A DNA stretch of 64,000 nucleotides, from positions 186,001 to 250,000 of the forward strand of contig NZ_NXLO01000002.1 in assembly GCF_003364295.1 (NCBI RefSeq). The letters are read 5' to 3'. How positions within the stretch are numbered: position 1 is the stretch's first letter; each line of letters begins with the position of its first letter. This DNA comes from Helicobacter sp. MIT 99-5507. Its GTDB lineage: Bacteria; Campylobacterota; Campylobacteria; Campylobacterales; Helicobacteraceae. The notes beneath the pieces are model-generated. The model ran no database searches. It worked only from the letters and a program-made list of their open reading frames with translations, and was not told the origin of the DNA. Made by a program: the position numbers and the translations under genes. Below are positions 1 to 21,484 of this stretch, piece after piece.

Positions 1-1028
1 ACTTTATTTTGCTGCGCAAGTCTTAATGCTAAAATCGCATAATTTAAAGAATCTTGGGCACTTCTATTTGGCTTAATCTTTGATATGCCTATATTTAGAT
101 TTAGGCTTAATTCATTGCTACCAAGAAATATATTTGTATTTTGCAATAATTCAATCAATCTATCACTTGCTCTTTTTGAACTAACAACATTAGAATGCTT
201 AAGCAACATACCAAAGATTCCATTGCCAATATAGCCTATCATATCACTTCTTCTTGATGTTTTTAGCAAGAGTTTTGCAACCGTTTTCATAACCACAAGC
301 GCCATTTGTTCGTTGTTTAAATATTGTGTAATACTATAAGGCAATGCCATCATAAGTATCGTAGAATTGTGATTAAATTTATTTACTGCAATAGATTCTT
401 CTTGCACTAATTTTATAAAATATCGTTTATTATAAACATCAAATTTTGAATCATACATAGTATTTGTATTTATATTTTCTAGTGCGTGGGAGCATTGTTC
501 ATAAAGTGATTTTAAAGTAATAACTTGTTTATCTATGTAATCTTTATTTTGCCTTAGTTTATCTAGCATTTGAGAATCTACATTTGTTTTATCTGCTTTT
601 ATTAGCTGTTCATAAATATCATTCATCAAAATAAAACTTTTATAGATTGAGGAAGTGCATTTAAGCAAATCTTTTGTTTTAGCAAATGCTATATAAATAT
701 TTTTTTCAAAATCTATATTCCTATCATCATTTTTTGTATCAGTTTCAATTAAATCATAAATTTTTTTTTGAAAATCTAAATCATATTTACCCAATATTTG
801 TTCAAAAAACGCTTGATAATTAGCAGGAAGAGGCGGAATATTTTGGCTACTTAAAGCACTCAACACTTCATTTGAAAGAGAATCTAAACTAGCTTGCGGA
901 GAATCGATAGATGTGTTGGTATTTGTATCAATATTTAAGTCATCAATATTTTCTAAATCGTTATGAAGATTCTCATCTAAATCTATAGATTCTGTTTCTT
1001 TAGAATCGTTTTTTTCTAATCTTATCAA
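1..1028 (-). CDS. Degenerate GGDEF-domain protein (C-terminal end outside window)
   Basis: About 342 codons are visible and the frame runs off the window at base 1. The N-terminal ~60 residues are acidic and Asp/Asn-rich, a helical middle part follows, and the last ~170 residues have the GGDEF-domain pattern (DVYNKRYF, then RSDMIGYIGNGIFGMLL). The signature loop reads GNGIF instead of GG(D/E)EF, so diguanylate cyclase activity is unlikely; a regulatory or c-di-GMP/protein-binding role is inferred. No ATG or GTG fits the N-terminus. A TTG at 1026-1028 preceded by AAGG about 8 bases upstream is the best start. It lies 9 bases downstream of the clpP stop, so it is probably cotranscribed with tig-clpP. 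Confidence 0.72.
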   Translation of the reverse strand, partial: MIRLEKNDSKETESIDLDENLHNDLENIDDLNIDTNTNTSIDSPQASLDSLSNEVLSALSSQNIPPLPANYQAFFEQILGKYDLDFQKKIYDLIETDTKNDDRNIDFEKNIYIAFAKTKDLLKCTSSIYKSFILMNDIYEQLIKADKTNVDSQMLDKLRQNKDYIDKQVITLKSLYEQCSHALENINTNTMYDSKFDVYNKRYFIKLVQEESIAVNKFNHNSTILMMALPYSITQYLNNEQMALVVMKTVAKLLLKTSRRSDMIGYIGNGIFGMLLKHSNVVSSKRASDRLIELLQNTNIFLGSNELSLNLNIGISKIKPNRSAQDSLNYAILALRLAQQNK

Positions 1029-1037
1029 TTTATTACC

Positions 1038-1628
1038 TTATTTTAGACTCTTATCCAATATATTATCAATAATCCCATATTCTTTAGCCTCTTTGGCACT
1101 CATAAAAAAATCTCTATCTGTATCATTAGAGATCTTTTTGATACTTTGATTTGTATTTTTTGCCATTATTTCATTTAGACTTTTCTTTATATATAAAATT
1201 TCTTTTGCTTGAATCTCAATATCACTTGCCTGCCCTTTTGCTCCACCTAATGGCTGGTGTATCATTATTCTTGCATTAGGTAGAGCATATCTCTTGCCTT
1301 TTGTCCCGCTACTAAGCAAAAAAGCTCCCATAGATGCGGCTTGACCTATACAAATAGTAGAAATATCTGGCTTTATATAATTCATCGTATCATAAATACT
1401 AAAACCACTTGTAACAGCACCACCAGGAGAATTTATATAAATATAAATATCTTTTTGTGGATCTTCTGCTTCCAAAAATAAAAGTTGTGCTACTATTGAT
1501 GAAGCGATATTATCATCGATTTCACCACTTAAAATCACAACTCTATCTTTTAATAATCGTGAGTAAATATCATAGCTTCGCTCGCCACGACTTGTCTTTT
1601 CAATAACATAAGGAATATAATTCATCAA
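1038..1628 (-). CDS. clpP: ATP-dependent Clp protease proteolytic subunit ClpP
   Basis: ClpP is the serine peptidase that forms double heptameric rings and degrades substrates fed by ClpA/ClpX-type unfoldases in the cytoplasm. The 196-residue length is standard. The catalytic triad is visible: Ser99 in AASMGAF, His124 in MIHQPLGG and Asp173 in DRDFFM. Two adjacent methionine codons are possible starts, with an AAAGG site upstream. The gene follows tig with a short gap, as in H. pylori (HP0795-HP0794), so chaperone and protease are probably coexpressed. Confidence 0.97.
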
Positions 1629-1660
1629 AATACCTTTTATTTTTTTCTTACCCTTTTATA

Positions 1661-2950
1661 TCAATCTTTTTTGATTGTAGATTCTAATAGATTATTTAGA
1701 ATCTTATTTTCTAAAATCGTCATTTTTAGCGCTGGTATCATATTGTTTTTTTCATAATGTTCTAATACTTCTTTTGGATTAGTACCCATCATCATAGCTT
1801 CATAATAAAGCACTTGATAAAGTTCATTATCACTAACTGCTACTTTATCTCTCTTTGCAAATTTATCAATAATAAATGTTAATTTAACACTTTTTTGTGC
1901 CTCATTCCTAAAAGATTCTCGCTTGTCTTTTGCTTTATCTTTATCATTTTGCAAGGCTTGTAGTTCTTCTGTATCAATATTTTGCAAACTATTTCTAAAA
2001 ATCACATCCATTTCTTGCTCAACAATATTATCTGGCAAATCAAAAGTAAAACCATCTATTAGATTCTCTATCAATTTTGGCTTTAAATCATTTAAAGCCT
2101 TATTTTTATTTTCATTTTCTAATTGAGTTTTGATATTTTCTCTTAAAGTTTCTAAAGTAGCATCTTTATTGTTTGGTATCATTTTCTTTGCAAATTCATC
2201 ATCAATCTTGCTTGCTTGTCGCTCTTTTATAGCATTTAATTTCACATTAAATCTTGCTTCTTTGCCTGCTAGATGAGTGGCATTGTAATTCTCTGGGAAT
2301 CTGACATTTATATCTTTTATATCACCTTTTTTCATGCCAATTAATTGATCTTCAAATCCTTCAATAAAACTTTTTGAGCCAATCTCTAAATCATAGTTTT
2401 CACCTTTTCCGCCTGTAAATGGCTCATTGCCTAAAAATCCCTCAAAATTTATATTTGCAATATCACTAGATTCTAAACTCTCTTTTGTAATCTCTACTAA
2501 ATCGCCACTAGATTTTGCTAATTCTTCAATCCTGGAATCTATATCTTTATTGCTTACTTCTTGCAATTCAACAACAGGGATTAATTTTTCATAATCTTTC
2601 AAATCAATATCTGGAAAGATTCCAATCTTTGCTTCTACTTCTATACCATTATCATTGTTTTGAAATTTCGTTATCATAGGATTGCCAATAATTCTATCTA
2701 ATTGAATGTTTAGCTCTTTTAGAGATTCTCTAACTAAATCATTTAGTGCTTCATTTTGACTATCTTGAATAATCCTATCTTTAAATCTATTTTCAACAAT
2801 ACTTAAAGGAACTTTACCTTTTCTAAAACCATCTATTTTTATATTTTTACTTATATCTTGGGCTATTTTTTTCTTTTTTTGGCTAATTGCTTCATTGTCA
2901 ATCGTGGCATTTAACAAAATATTTGCATTATTTATTAGTTTTACACTCAT
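1661..2950 (-). CDS. tig: Trigger factor, ribosome-associated chaperone and peptidyl-prolyl isomerase
   Basis: Trigger factor binds ribosomal protein uL23 near the exit tunnel and shields nascent chains. The 429-residue protein has the three expected parts: an N-terminal ribosome-binding domain with the GFRKGKVP signature at residues 41-48, an FKBP-type isomerase domain around residues 160-245 (EGFEDQLIGMKKGD), and a helical C-terminal chaperone domain. An AAGGAAA site precedes the ATG. It is the first gene of a minus-strand run with clpP and diverges from fliI across 93 bases. Confidence 0.97.
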   Translation of the reverse strand: MSVKLINNANILLNATIDNEAISQKKKKIAQDISKNIKIDGFRKGKVPLSIVENRFKDRIIQDSQNEALNDLVRESLKELNIQLDRIIGNPMITKFQNNDNGIEVEAKIGIFPDIDLKDYEKLIPVVELQEVSNKDIDSRIEELAKSSGDLVEITKESLESSDIANINFEGFLGNEPFTGGKGENYDLEIGSKSFIEGFEDQLIGMKKGDIKDINVRFPENYNATHLAGKEARFNVKLNAIKERQASKIDDEFAKKMIPNNKDATLETLRENIKTQLENENKNKALNDLKPKLIENLIDGFTFDLPDNIVEQEMDVIFRNSLQNIDTEELQALQNDKDKAKDKRESFRNEAQKSVKLTFIIDKFAKRDKVAVSDNELYQVLYYEAMMMGTNPKEVLEHYEKNNMIPALKMTILENKILNNLLESTIKKD

Positions 2951-3016
2951 TATTATTTCCTTACATCATAAAGGCTAGATTTAAGTGTGTATTTTAACAA
3001 AAAAACATACAATATC

Positions 3017-3022
3017 TATAAT
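3017..3022 (+). promoter_or_regulatory. -10 element (TATAAT) upstream of fliI
   Basis: A perfect TATAAT lies 21 bases upstream of the fliI start, in an A/T-rich divergent region shared with tig. Helicobacter sigma-80 promoters usually need only this box plus T-rich upstream periodicity. Identified by eye. Confidence 0.45.
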
Positions 3023-3043
3023 AATATTTTCTTAAGGTATTAA

Positions 3044-4345
3044 ATGTCTTTAGGTAAATTAAGAGCAAAAATAGAAAACAAAATAAATCTTTCTCCACAT
3101 TTTGGAGAGATAACACATATTTATTCAAACACCATAAAAGCAAATGGATTAAAAACTTCCATAGGTGATATAGTAAGCATAAAAGGCACTGATAGTGATA
3201 TTTTAGGGATTGTTAGCACAATAGATGTAGAATCTTTTTCGATCACACCATTTACATCTACACAAGGACATAAAATAGGTGATAAAGTATTTATAAATCA
3301 AAAAGGTTTAAAAATTGGTGTTGGCGAGGGATTGCTTGGCAGAGTTGTAGATCCTATGGTAAATCCAATCGATAATCTTGGCGAAATCAAAAAAGATGCA
3401 TTTATTTCAATATTAAACAAACCAATAAAAGCTATGGATCGAGGGTTAATTAATGAGAAATTTAGTGTTGGAGTAAAAAGTATTGATGGATTGCTTACTT
3501 GTGGTAAAGGGCAAAAAATGGGAATCTTTGCAGGAAGTGGAGTAGGTAAATCTAGCCTTCTTGGAATGATAGTAAGAGGCTCAAATGCAGATGTAAAGGT
3601 TATAGCATTAATTGGCGAGCGAGGCAGAGAAGTGCCTGAATTTATCATAAAAAATCTTGCTGGTGATTTGACAAATACGATTATAGTTGTAGCGACAAGT
3701 GACGATTCTCCGCTTATGAGAAAATATGGAGCATTTAGTGCAATGTCAATTGCTGAATATTTTAAAAATCAAAATAAAGATGTTTTATTTATAATGGATT
3801 CTGTAACAAGATTTGCAATGGCACAAAGAGAAATAGGATTGTCGCTTGGTGAGCCACCAACATCAAAAGGTTATCCACCATCGTCACTAAGCTTACTTCC
3901 ACAGCTTATGGAGAGAGCAGGAAAAGAAGAAAATAAAGGCTCAATAACTGCCTTTTTCACCGTGCTTGTTGAAGGCGATGATTTAAATGACCCGATAGCT
4001 GATCAAAGTAGAAGCATCCTTGATGGACATATTGTTTTAAGCAGGGAATTAGGAGAATTTGGTATATATCCACCAATAAATATACTTTCATCTGCATCAC
4101 GTATCATGAATGATATTATTGATAAAAAACATAAAGAAAATGCTATCAAATTTAGAAGGGCATATGCTCTTTTAAAAGAAAATGAGATTCTAATAAGGAT
4201 TGGTTCGTATCAAAAAGGAAGCGATAAAGAATTAGATGATGCAATAAACAAAAAAGACAAATTAGATACATTTTTACAACAAGATTCTAATGAAAAACTA
4301 GATTTTAATACTATTTACGCAAAATTAAATGAAATTTTTCAATAA
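3044..4345 (+). CDS. fliI: Flagellum-specific ATPase FliI
   Basis: FliI energises the flagellar type III export apparatus together with FliH. It has 433 residues, usual for the family. The Walker A loop GSGVGKSS is at residues 164-171 and the catalytic-region ERGREVPEF follows. The F1-ATPase-like sequence GYPPSSLSLLPQLMERAG and the conserved SITAFFTVLVEGDD are also present. It has its own -10 box and an AAGG site before the ATG, and it diverges from tig. It is not embedded in a large flagellar operon, which is typical of the scattered flagellar genes of Helicobacter. Confidence 0.97.
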   Translation: MSLGKLRAKIENKINLSPHFGEITHIYSNTIKANGLKTSIGDIVSIKGTDSDILGIVSTIDVESFSITPFTSTQGHKIGDKVFINQKGLKIGVGEGLLGRVVDPMVNPIDNLGEIKKDAFISILNKPIKAMDRGLINEKFSVGVKSIDGLLTCGKGQKMGIFAGSGVGKSSLLGMIVRGSNADVKVIALIGERGREVPEFIIKNLAGDLTNTIIVVATSDDSPLMRKYGAFSAMSIAEYFKNQNKDVLFIMDSVTRFAMAQREIGLSLGEPPTSKGYPPSSLSLLPQLMERAGKEENKGSITAFFTVLVEGDDLNDPIADQSRSILDGHIVLSRELGEFGIYPPINILSSASRIMNDIIDKKHKENAIKFRRAYALLKENEILIRIGSYQKGSDKELDDAINKKDKLDTFLQQDSNEKLDFNTIYAKLNEIFQ

Positions 4346-4385
4346 TATTAAAGCATTAAGCTATATATTTTACTTTTAAAAATAG

Positions 4386-4391
4386 TATAAT
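4386..4391 (+). promoter_or_regulatory. -10 element (TATAAT) upstream of nifS-nifU
   Basis: TATAAT preceded by TAG lies about 75 bases before the preferred nifS start, giving an untranslated leader of roughly 65-70 bases. Identified by eye. Confidence 0.45.
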
Positions 4392-4442
4392 CTAGCCCCA
4401 AATAATAATTTTTATTAATTGATTTTTTTTAAATAATTTTGA

Positions 4443-5627
<1,185 letters not shown>

Positions 5628-17637: not shown

Positions 17638-18567
17638 ATGAATAAAAAAATAGATATAGCAGTAATTGGTGGTGGAGTTTGGGGAAGGGCGCTTGCTTTT
17701 TGTTTTAGTCAAAAAAATAATGTAGGTATAGTTTCAAGAAGAGAATTGAAATTTTTAAATACCTATTATTCTCACAGAGTAATACAAATTGACTTAAAAA
17801 ATGCCTTAAAATGCAAATACATAGTAATAGCAATAAAAAGCCAAGCTATGCGAGAATGGCTTGCTAATGTAAAATTTCATAAAGATTCTGTAGTTATTAT
17901 TGCATCAAAAGGAATTGAAGCAGATAGCGGTGCTTTTATGAGTGATATTTTTAATGAATATTTTCCAAATCTAAAAACTGGATATTTGATGGGTCCATCA
18001 TTCTCAAAAGAAGTATTAGAGAGCATGCCTTGTGCATTGAATATACACACAAAATACGATATAAAAAGCATAGCAGATATCTTTCCTAATTTTATGAAAA
18101 TATATTTTAATGATGATGTTATCGGTGGTGAAATAGCTGGTGCTTATAAAAATATCATTGCTATTGCAAGCGGTATTAGTGATGGATTAAATCTAGGGAA
18201 TAATGCAAAAGCTTCTATGCTTGCAAGAGGATTGGTTGAGATGTGTAGATTTGGTATGCATTTTGGTGCAAAAGAATCTACATTTCTTGGATTAAGTGGA
18301 GCTGGAGATTTATTTTTGACTGCAAATTCGCAATTATCTCGTAATTATCGCGTAGGTATTGCACTAGCTAGTGGAAAATCTCTAAAAAATACATTAAATG
18401 AACTAGGGGAAATAGCAGAGGGTGTAGTAAGCACTCAAGCTGTCGTGGATCTAGCAATAAAACACGATATATATATACCAATAGCATATCAAGTATATCA
18501 AGTATTACAAGGCAAATCAGCAATAAATAGCGTAAAAGATCTTATTGGGACTAATTTTGAAAACTAA
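17638..18567 (+). CDS. gpsA: NAD(P)H-dependent glycerol-3-phosphate dehydrogenase
   Basis: GpsA reduces dihydroxyacetone phosphate to sn-glycerol-3-phosphate for phospholipid synthesis. The 309 residues include the Rossmann loop GGGVWG at 11-16, the GPSF stretch and the catalytic-lysine helix GAYKNIIAIASG. The gene follows argS by 13 bases. Its end overlaps the convergent glycosyltransferase by 4 bases. Confidence 0.95.
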   Translation: MNKKIDIAVIGGGVWGRALAFCFSQKNNVGIVSRRELKFLNTYYSHRVIQIDLKNALKCKYIVIAIKSQAMREWLANVKFHKDSVVIIASKGIEADSGAFMSDIFNEYFPNLKTGYLMGPSFSKEVLESMPCALNIHTKYDIKSIADIFPNFMKIYFNDDVIGGEIAGAYKNIIAIASGISDGLNLGNNAKASMLARGLVEMCRFGMHFGAKESTFLGLSGAGDLFLTANSQLSRNYRVGIALASGKSLKNTLNELGEIAEGVVSTQAVVDLAIKHDIYIPIAYQVYQVLQGKSAINSVKDLIGTNFEN

Positions 18568-19694
18568 GATAAATCTTTTAGTTTATTTTTTCCCTCTCCA
18601 TTTGTCAGAATCTTTAATAAGCCATAAAACACTGCTTGATAATAATATTTCATCACAAGCCTAAAAGGACGCCTGTATCTAGTGATCAAAACTTCTTTTT
18701 TTGGTATATTATGATGTAATTTTTCATCATTAACAATATTTTTTGATAGAGAATAAAGCATGGAATAATCATAAAGAACTCGCCTTCGTGCTTCTAACAA
18801 AGCATCAAAATTAGCTTCATAAAAATCAGAATCTAATACATTCTCAATCAAATTTAGAGAATCTTGCAAATTATAAATATCAATTTTTATAAATGAATTT
18901 TTAGGAAAATACTCTTCTACATTTTTTGCACCAAAATAAATTGGTATGCTATATCCAAGATATGAATCCATTATTTTTTCACTAATGTAATCATTTTGTG
19001 AATTATTTTCTATGGCTATGGTGTATTTATATGGCAAGATTCCATCTTTTTTCTCTTTTAGCTCAAATTCTGTTTTATTACCAAAAAAATCTATCCTCTT
19101 GCCTATCTTTGTTTTTTTTAGTGCAGTTACAAATTTCATTCTATCTAAATGCCCATAAAATGCCTTTTTGTCAAAGCTAGCAATACAAGATATTTCTTTT
19201 GTTTTTCTTATTGGAGGTATTTTACACAAAGTATCAAAAGGCACATTTCCAAAGCAAAAATAAAGTGCTGGGTGATGTTTTATAAAAGTAGTATTATTTT
19301 TGATAAAAGTTTTTGGATTATCTTTTATTAAATTTTTATCTTTAAATAATTCATCATTAAAAGCAAAAACAATATCACAAAATAAATAATAATCAGTGCT
19401 AATTGCCCATTCATTTTTAAAAGGAATGGCATATTTTTTAGATTTTCTTATATATGGTTCTTGCTGCAGAGCAAATACCCTCTTTGCTTTTACTTTTACA
19501 TCTCTAGGAGATTTATTTATCACTACAATATAATCACACTCTATATACCCCCCCCCGCTATCATTAGAATCTAATGATATAAACTCTAAAGTATAATCGC
19601 CAATCTTGATTTTTGAATCATTATTTGGCGATAGAATCTTAATCATACTCTCCAAACTTCTATAATCACTCAAAACTCCAACTTCTAGATTCAA
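18564..19694 (-). CDS. GT10-family fucosyltransferase-like glycosyltransferase, phase-variable (ON)
   Basis: The C-terminal half carries the GT10 (alpha-1,3/4-fucosyltransferase) signature: YKYTIAIENN, DYISEKIMDSYLGYSIPIYFG and FPKNSFI. It probably decorates LPS O-antigen in a Lewis-like manner; the acceptor is unknown. The best start is TTG at 19692-19694 with AGGAG 5 bases upstream (376 residues); an upstream in-frame ATG at 19790 would overlap the divergent gene. Codons 47-49 are a run of nine G (coding strand), typical of slipped-strand phase variation. As sequenced the frame is intact. The C-terminus is basic and may bind membrane, as in H. pylori FucTs. Confidence 0.85.
   Translation of the reverse strand: MNLEVGVLSDYRSLESMIKILSPNNDSKIKIGDYTLEFISLDSNDSGGGYIECDYIVVINKSPRDVKVKAKRVFALQQEPYIRKSKKYAIPFKNEWAISTDYYLFCDIVFAFNDELFKDKNLIKDNPKTFIKNNTTFIKHHPALYFCFGNVPFDTLCKIPPIRKTKEISCIASFDKKAFYGHLDRMKFVTALKKTKIGKRIDFFGNKTEFELKEKKDGILPYKYTIAIENNSQNDYISEKIMDSYLGYSIPIYFGAKNVEEYFPKNSFIKIDIYNLQDSLNLIENVLDSDFYEANFDALLEARRRVLYDYSMLYSLSKNIVNDEKLHHNIPKKEVLITRYRRPFRLVMKYYYQAVFYGLLKILTNGEGKNKLKDLS
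19548..19556 (-). repeat. Poly-G/C phase-variation tract (9 bases) in the GT10 gene
   Basis: Nine consecutive C on the plus strand (G on the coding strand) begin exactly at codon 47 and encode three Gly. Gain or loss of one base would shift the frame shortly after residue 49 and switch the gene OFF. Confidence 0.9.
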
Positions 19695-19754
19695 AAAAGC
19701 TCCTAAAAAATAATTGTTATAATAGCAGATTGATTTTATATAAAGGTAAATGTG

Positions 19755-20667
19755 ATGAAAGTTAAAAATGCAATAAAAACTAAAATCCAAAATATATTTG
19801 GATTAAATAAACTAGAAAATAATCTAAGAGATATAAAAGCAATAAATATCATAAGTCAATTGAAATTTGATGGTAGTTTGCAAGATGAATGGCTTCTAGC
19901 TAGTTTTCCAACAATTAGAGGTGGAATAAAATCTACAAATAAAATAGAGAATCTAAAAACATATTTAAATCTTCTAAAACCGGTGCAATGGGGGGGGGCT
20001 GCAAAGAGTTGGTGGAAAAAATGATGGTGGATACATTCAAGCAATATCACTTCCAGAAAACAATGCTATTGCAATATCATTAGGAGTATCCCCATATTCA
20101 CCTTGGGATTTGGATATGGCAAATATGGGATACAAAGTCTTGCAATATGATGGGAGTATATATAAAGCTCCATATAATCACCCAAATATAAAGTTTTTTA
20201 AAAAATTTGTTGGAACAAAAGATTCTAATAACACAATAACACTTCAAACAATCATCAAGCAAAATAACATCAATATAAACTCACATAATATATTGCAAGT
20301 TGATATTGAAGATAATGAATGGGATATGCTAGAAAATATAGATTTAAAAGAGGTGTCAAAATACTTCACTCAAATATTATTTGAATTTCATAACTGCAAT
20401 GTAGAAGATGACAAATTATCACAAAGACGATTTAAAATATTAGAAAAGATAAATAAATATTTCACGCCGATACATACGCATTTTAATAATCATGGAATGA
20501 TATTTTATAGCAAAGGCTTATTTTTAAGTGATACTATCGAAGTCTCATATATGAATAATAAAGCAATAGAATCCTTTGAATACAAAAGTGGATTTGGAAG
20601 TATTGTAGGCTTAGATTCTCCAAATTCTACAAATTATCCAGAGATTCCAGTAATATTTCCAAATTAA
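19755..20667 (+). CDS. FkbM-family methyltransferase-like gene, phase-variable (OFF as sequenced)
   Basis: Two frames together make one gene. Frame 1 starts at the ATG 19755 (AAAGG about 8 bases upstream) and runs through a tract of nine G at 19990-19998, then stops at 20024 after 89 codons. From 19999 the next frame reads LQRVGGKNDGGYI onward to 20667 without a stop. An 8-base (or 11-base) tract would join them into a 303-residue protein. The joined product shows FkbM-type features: VGGKNDGGYI, ISLGVSPYSPWDLDMA, and LQVDIEDNEWDML, the SAM-binding and acidic motifs. The likely role is methylation of a surface glycan. Confidence 0.82.
19990..19998 (+). repeat. Poly-G phase-variation tract (9 bases) in the methyltransferase gene
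   Basis: The run of nine G begins in codon 79 (TGG). With nine, translation ends at 20022-20024 (TGA); with eight, the downstream frame is restored. Confidence 0.9.
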
Positions 20668-20668
20668 C

Positions 20669-21484
20669 CTAGAATCTTTGTGCGATAAATCCTCGCACAA
20701 ATGATGAATAATCTTTATAAAAATAAATATCATCATAATTTTTCAAATAATCTTTTAAGCATTCTTGGTTATATCCTATTTCACAACACAAATATTTTGC
20801 ATCAAGATTGATTATATCTAGCAATATTTCATAGCCCTTCTCGCCTCCAAAAAGAGCGGTTTTTGGCTCAAAATGTAGATTTGGTGGAATCTTATAAGAG
20901 TTTTTAATATATGGCGGATTTGACACAATAAAATCATTTTTTGTTCTATTTATTCCATCAAGTAAATTCGTGCAAACTAATGAGATTCTACTATTTAGTG
21001 AAGAATCTAAAATGCTTTTTAGCTTGATATTTTTTCTTGCAACCTCTAAGGCTTTATCATATTTATCAATAGCTATAATCTCTAAATCCTTATGCATAAG
21101 CCCTAAGATGATGCTAATCACACCGCTACCTACACCTATTTCAAAAATCTTTTTGATATTATTTTTTACAATCATTTTTGATGTATAATCAATAAGCAAT
21201 TCAGTTTCTGGACGCGGGATCAACGCACCTTCATCTATATAAAAATATTGCGAATAAAAGCTAACTTTGTTTGTTATATATTCTATTGGATAATTATTAT
21301 TTAGTTTATCAATATATTGCAATAATAATTCAAAATCACTATTACCAATCTCAAAATCACTATTTGAATGCAAAAAAACTCTATCTTTTTTAAGAATATG
21401 ACAGAGCAATATCTCGCATTCTAGTAACTTTCTAGTGCTATTATTTTTTTGCTTTGCTATATTTAGAGCATCTTTTATTTTCAT
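20669..21484 (-). CDS. prmC: Release factor glutamine methyltransferase PrmC (HemK)
   Basis: PrmC methylates the GGQ glutamine of release factors. The 271 residues contain IPRPETE at 89-95, the SAM loop EIGVGSGVIS around 115-124 and the NPPY active site at 189-192. It is the last gene of the ten-gene minus-strand run and overlaps the M48 peptidase gene by 4 bases. It converges on the methyltransferase gene with a 1-base gap. Confidence 0.95.
   Translation of the reverse strand: MKIKDALNIAKQKNNSTRKLLECEILLCHILKKDRVFLHSNSDFEIGNSDFELLLQYIDKLNNNYPIEYITNKVSFYSQYFYIDEGALIPRPETELLIDYTSKMIVKNNIKKIFEIGVGSGVISIILGLMHKDLEIIAIDKYDKALEVARKNIKLKSILDSSLNSRISLVCTNLLDGINRTKNDFIVSNPPYIKNSYKIPPNLHFEPKTALFGGEKGYEILLDIINLDAKYLCCEIGYNQECLKDYLKNYDDIYFYKDYSSFVRGFIAQRF

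Follow-up and report, generated by a model that had tools for sequence, protein, structure and literature searches.

Two genes stand back to back in the window, a 64-kb stretch of the genome of Helicobacter sp. MIT 99-5507, a gut Helicobacter relative (G000). One is a member of the fucosyltransferase family GT10 and the other encodes an FkbM-like methyltransferase (MT), and together they fill the space between the 3' ends of two convergent genes, which we take from their sequences to be gpsA and prmC. The features of the locus are as follows:

17638–18567, plus strand: gpsA, convergent flank, its 3' end overlapping the 3' end of GT10
18564–19694, minus strand: GT10 gene of the fucosyltransferase family, 376 aa from a TTG start, ON in the assembly
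19548–19556, minus strand: GT10 switch tract, C9 on the plus strand and G9 on the coding strand, at about residues 46–49 (SNDSGGGYIE)
19695–19754, no strand: divergent gap of 60 bp between the GT10 and MT starts
19700–19704, minus strand: Shine-Dalgarno AGGAG of GT10, read from the sequence, 5 nt upstream of TTG 19694
19715–19727, no strand: near-palindromic extended −10, TGTTATAATAGCA, candidate shared bidirectional promoter
19718–19723 (plus strand) and 19724–19719 (minus strand): −10 hexamers TATAAT and TATTAT, respectively, read from the sequence
19742–19746, plus strand: Shine-Dalgarno AAAGG of MT, read from the sequence, 8 nt upstream of ATG 19755
19755–20667, plus strand: MT gene, 303 aa with eight Gs, assembled stop at 20024
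19990–19998, plus strand: G9 tract that switches MT, in a predicted loop ahead of strand 82–85, with DGGY 11 codons downstream
20041–20070, plus strand: loop that carries the repeat in the MT family, about residues 96–105, before the SAM-binding strand, free of repeats in the window MT
20669–21484, minus strand: prmC, convergent flank backed by synteny, with 1 bp between it and the MT stop

The divergent starts at 19694 and 19755 given by the initial annotation were confirmed, and exactly 60 bp separate them. The unusual TTG 19694 is supported as the GT10 start by homologous genes that begin at this very codon, as GTG in a sheep-colon Helicobacteraceae MAG that is the nearest relative (G002, JAFVZI010000007.1, the contig also labelled L093) and as ATG in G003. 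No Rfam match was found in the 64-kb window.

The nine-base G tract annotated in each gene was also confirmed and is far above chance, the two being the only G/C runs of at least eight in the window; 0.01 matches of eight-mer G/C runs are expected there, and the observed number of tracts was reached in 0 of 100 shuffles. Both repeats lie inside the reading frame and their length sets the frame, as in contingency loci. With nine Gs the GT10 frame is open over 376 aa and that of MT is OFF, with a stop after 89 aa, the latter opening with 8 Gs (303 aa) or 11 Gs (304 aa). The assembly is therefore one of four genotypes (GT10 on, MT off).

The assignment of GT10 to family 10 is given by a PF00852 score of 52.7 bits (curated cut-off 23.9) and by the donor-site motif YISEK, which aligns with YVTEK of the fucosyltransferase PDB 2nzw; 9s6a is a further relative in the PDB. 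The Y-x-x-E-K motif is conserved in the GT10 donor region. The H. pylori alpha-1,3-fucosyltransferases (2nzw), in whose fut genes frame switching by homopolymers is known, have the Pfam family and this motif in common with GT10. The window gene differs from them in its diverged N-terminal half, in a G9 that codes for GGG near residue 47, and in its divergent orientation to a methyltransferase. The supply of GDP-fucose appears to be covered, as both gmd (584 bits, cut-off 415) and fcl (59% to E. coli fcl) are present in the genome, which makes fucosylation plausible. From the Pfam score, the shared donor-site motif and these two genes, L-fucose transfer, with GDP-fucose as donor and a surface glycan as acceptor, is our best guess and the probable activity of GT10; the fucose transfer that had been annotated thus stands as plausible. 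A structure model of GT10, built from two sequences, reached a pLDDT of 29.7, too low to be of use. A second GT10 gene is convergent to fcl at G000:C1:80404-84000 (L047), and a G9 tract (C1:81501-81509) lies in the ~700-bp space between them, which yielded no 110-aa ORF.

Homologues of MT occur across Campylobacterota. The window protein scored below the cut-offs of both PF05050 (20.3 vs. 22.7) and the NCBIfam FkbM model TIGR01444 (16.5 vs. 37.7), and for this reason it is called FkbM-like and not a member of FkbM; PF05050 was matched by 9 of the 10 aligned family members at E ≤ 0.01 (best 9.2e-8). Its AlphaFold model (pLDDT 86.9) has a class I SAM methyltransferase fold, and a structure search with this model returned many class I methyltransferases at Z 9–10 (about 10) over residues 86–273. 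Foldseek alone gave weak matches, and the sequence search of the PDB returned no relative. As modelled, MT is an FkbM-like, SAM-dependent methyltransferase of class I, and its probable role is the O-methylation of a surface sugar.

The arrangement in G002 is identical to that in the window: both genes carry their G9 at the same codons as here, and GT10 is open and MT is off. As this genome is related but diverged (protein differences of ~10% in the flanking genes and 17–22% in GT10 and MT), recurrence of both tracts at nine argues that they are no assembly artefact, in a comparison of tract lengths that covers single assemblies, one genome per species. In G003, which has 12 tracts in all, a GT10 gene (68%) occupies the same site without a tract and without MT. 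In G001 and G004, GT10 and MT are on different contigs, and a search of both genomes for an empty gpsA–prmC site found gpsA not adjoining prmC. The G001 GT10 has a large insertion elsewhere that carries an in-frame G9 (L045:8869-8877), so the position of the GT10 tract is not conserved.

The candidate promoter in the gap, TGTTATAATAGCA, reads TG-T-TATAAT forward and TG-C-TATTAT backward on nearly the same bases, i.e., by its sequence alone the symmetric −10 is readable on both strands, as in bidirectional promoters. The overlapping hexamers pair −11A of one strand with −7T of the other, and the predicted A starts, at 19729 (plus strand) and 19711 (minus strand), are 18 bp apart. The exact symmetric pattern TGNTATAATANCA occurs a single time in the window, against an expectation of 0.2 per 64 kb, and the chance of its falling in the 60-bp gap is in the order of 2 in 10,000, a post hoc figure for a pattern noticed after looking. 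In AT-rich DNA −10-like sites are common, and no −10/−35 pair turned up in the gap in a sigma-70 scan that required a −35 box. G002 retains the TATAATA core and has lost the TG extension of the −10 in the GT10 direction. The same overlapping −10 geometry is found in bacterial bidirectional promoters (PMC10268837), for which a spacing of 7–25 bp between divergent start sites serves as the criterion. Those of Warman et al. likewise have one near-palindromic −10 used both ways, with starts about 18 bp apart (predicted here); they differ from the element in the gap in that the latter is known as a stretch of letters only, and in that both of its products are separately frame-switched.

We favour, with some confidence, the explanation that GT10 and MT are back-to-back contingency genes, a putative fucosyltransferase and a putative methyltransferase, with independent G9 frame switches and probably with shared transcription. 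In culture, strand slippage in the G9 tract of each gene would switch its own frame independently of the other, and the symmetric −10 would probably let RNA polymerase load either way, so that transcription would be shared and translation set gene by gene. In E. coli, bidirectional promoters show little competition between directions at basal levels and competition once one direction is activated (PMC12825309); by analogy, the two directions here need not compete at basal levels. Because one −10 reads both ways, the two independent switches of the initial annotation can be retained for the frames, each gene having its own tract, but probably not for transcription. A shared promoter raises the question of how two independent frame switches behave with transcripts from one element. 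The four surface states that had been proposed hold as four genotypes, but would come down to three phenotypes if MT needs the fucose added by GT10.

Whether the two genes form one module was assessed in 121 Helicobacteraceae genomes. MT relatives were found in 46 of these (39 strong) and GT10 in 88, and the presence of one was unlinked to that of the other: GT10 is present in 28 of the 39 MT genomes and in 60 of the 82 others (Fisher p = 1), with 11 of the 39 lacking any GT10. The two genes are adjacent in G000 and G002 only, i.e., in one lineage, and about 4 kb apart in G090 and G076. Likewise, among 32 named MT loci an adjacent GT10 was found only in L093, and weak GT10 matches lie about 4 kb (L113) and about 7 kb (L121) away. 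The MT gene elsewhere stands alone among housekeeping genes or beside genes that, read from their sequences, we presume to be involved in nucleotide-sugar and heptose modification (C. jejuni 414, C. bilis, H. valdiviensis, H. apodemus).

We give even odds to a reading in which the two genes are chance neighbours, a mobile solitary phase-variable MT having landed beside a pre-existing GT10, with promoter DNA shared and the glycan not. The restriction of the adjacency to one lineage fits this reading, as do copies of MT that stand alone in other genomes of the genus (G001, G004) and the synonymous divergence of MT from L093 (dS 0.92, vs. 0.47–0.65 for GT10 and the flanking genes), which hints at a separate history and may reflect allele exchange; nevertheless, the pair and its promoter core have outlasted about 0.5 synonymous changes per site. 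Doubtful, by comparison, is a true two-switch module in which MT would methylate the fucose added by GT10, leaving the glycan bare, fucosylated or methyl-fucosylated. It would account for a divergent pair and shared promoter core kept in two species, and for the joint absence of tract and partner from the G003 locus, by which the two go together in these three genomes; methylated fucose is also known in other organisms, including root-associated bacteria (PMC8492980). However, there is no MT–GT10 association over the 121 genomes and the MT relatives sit in the surroundings described above. Searches of the open-access literature for methylated fucose in Helicobacter and for NoeI with FkbM found no direct precedent. 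The initial annotation had tentatively read the pair as one module on one glycan and had named a lack of co-occurrence in relatives as a ground for refuting it; the pair does not co-occur beyond the one lineage, and action of both enzymes on the same glycan is possible but unsupported, and in our judgement improbable.

Both genes are under purifying selection, with dN/dS between the window and G002 of 0.16 for GT10 and 0.16 for MT, compared with 0.13 for gpsA and 0.08–0.10 for prmC, htpX and argS. That MT is a decaying pseudogene, OFF with nine Gs and frameshifted in both assemblies (window and G002), is therefore very improbable, since selection acts on both sides of the tract (dN/dS 0.20 before, 0.14 after) and a third of the MT relatives are in frame. 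A gene selected in this manner though off in the assembly behaves as a contingency gene, and we regard MT as a working gene that is often off and not as a relic.

Catalogues of phase variation usually list individual tracts; here the MT gene was followed as a family. A poly-G or poly-C run of at least seven lies inside the gene in 30 of the 32 named Campylobacterota loci, and 29 of these 30 tracts (L110 by inspection) are in the loop between DGGYVM and SLGVS, the thirtieth being that of G002. Of the loop tracts, 18 are poly-C, coding for proline, and 11 are poly-G, coding for glycine; some species contribute two or more copies to these counts. A tract 11 codons before DGGY was present in the window and G002 only, among the relatives examined, and in both of these the loop is free of repeats. 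H. suis has no G/C tract and carries (GA)9 in the same loop, where its frame is broken (L123:1329-1346), this being the only GA/CT repeat of at least six units in 588 kb of MT loci; in C. bilis, also without a G/C tract, the loop contains an interrupted G-rich stretch. As slippage cannot turn poly-G into poly-C or GA, the family must have exchanged its repeat at least twice. The best tree of the C-terminal part of MT requires at least two G/C changes, and the window and G002 (99/94) fall in it among poly-C members such as L094 (from the record of G004) and the two Helicobacter sp. 16-1353 copies, in a wider grouping supported at only 81/70. About a third of the copies with a tract are in frame, the share expected if phase is random.

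From this distribution we lean, by a modest margin, towards selection that preserves the switchability of MT throughout Campylobacterota as individual repeats are lost and invented anew; in this lineage, once the loop repeat was gone, a fresh poly-G would have arisen ~18 codons upstream of it, and would have been coupled to a partner through the shared symmetric promoter. A switch present in almost every species examined, built from different repeats and placed differently in this lineage, makes the question "is switchability itself selected?" testable by sequence alone. In Haemophilus, genes are switched by differing repeat types in different strains (PMC2651432). A search of the open-access literature for convergent tract gain found no direct precedent, and clear turnover within a single gene family, in the type of the repeat as well as its place, is, as far as the literature searched shows, new. 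Outside Campylobacterota, a tract of at least eight was found in 2 of 48 distant homologues, hinting at switching in the MT family there as well: a C9 about 7 codons after DGGY in Candidatus Ectomicrobium neotermitis (L125) and a G12 further downstream of DGGY in a Selenomonadaceae member (L162).

Fucosyltransferases and methyltransferases switched by tracts are already known among contingency genes (PMC6321876, PMC2823697). The phase-variable methyltransferases of Campylobacter (PhasomeIt, PMC6321876) and of H. canadensis (HCAN_0647 and HCAN_0671, PMC2823697) resemble MT, by their description, in having poly-G/C tracts inside the reading frame; the window tract lies at a different codon from that of the other MT relatives examined outside G002. 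The hifA/hifB genes of H. influenzae are, like GT10 and MT, a divergent phase-variable pair with the promoter region between them (PMC2651432), but both of those genes are under the control of a single repeat in that region, whereas GT10 and MT have their own coding-region tracts. No direct precedent for divergent tract-switched glycan genes was found in the open-access literature, and a divergent pair of this kind on one symmetric promoter is, within the literature searched, new.

Genome-wide, G000 has 98 tracts of at least eight Gs, 62 on one contig strand and 36 on the other. This number was considered as a peculiarity of the genome and dropped, being within the range of the family (6 to 251 per genome, median 67, in the 121 Helicobacteraceae). 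Dense poly-G clusters lie at G000:C1:354000-420000 and 229000-246000 (L050-L054), and the most tracts among the 121 genomes, about 250 poly-G tracts each, were found in two genomes of genus g2 of the same family (G018 and G038).
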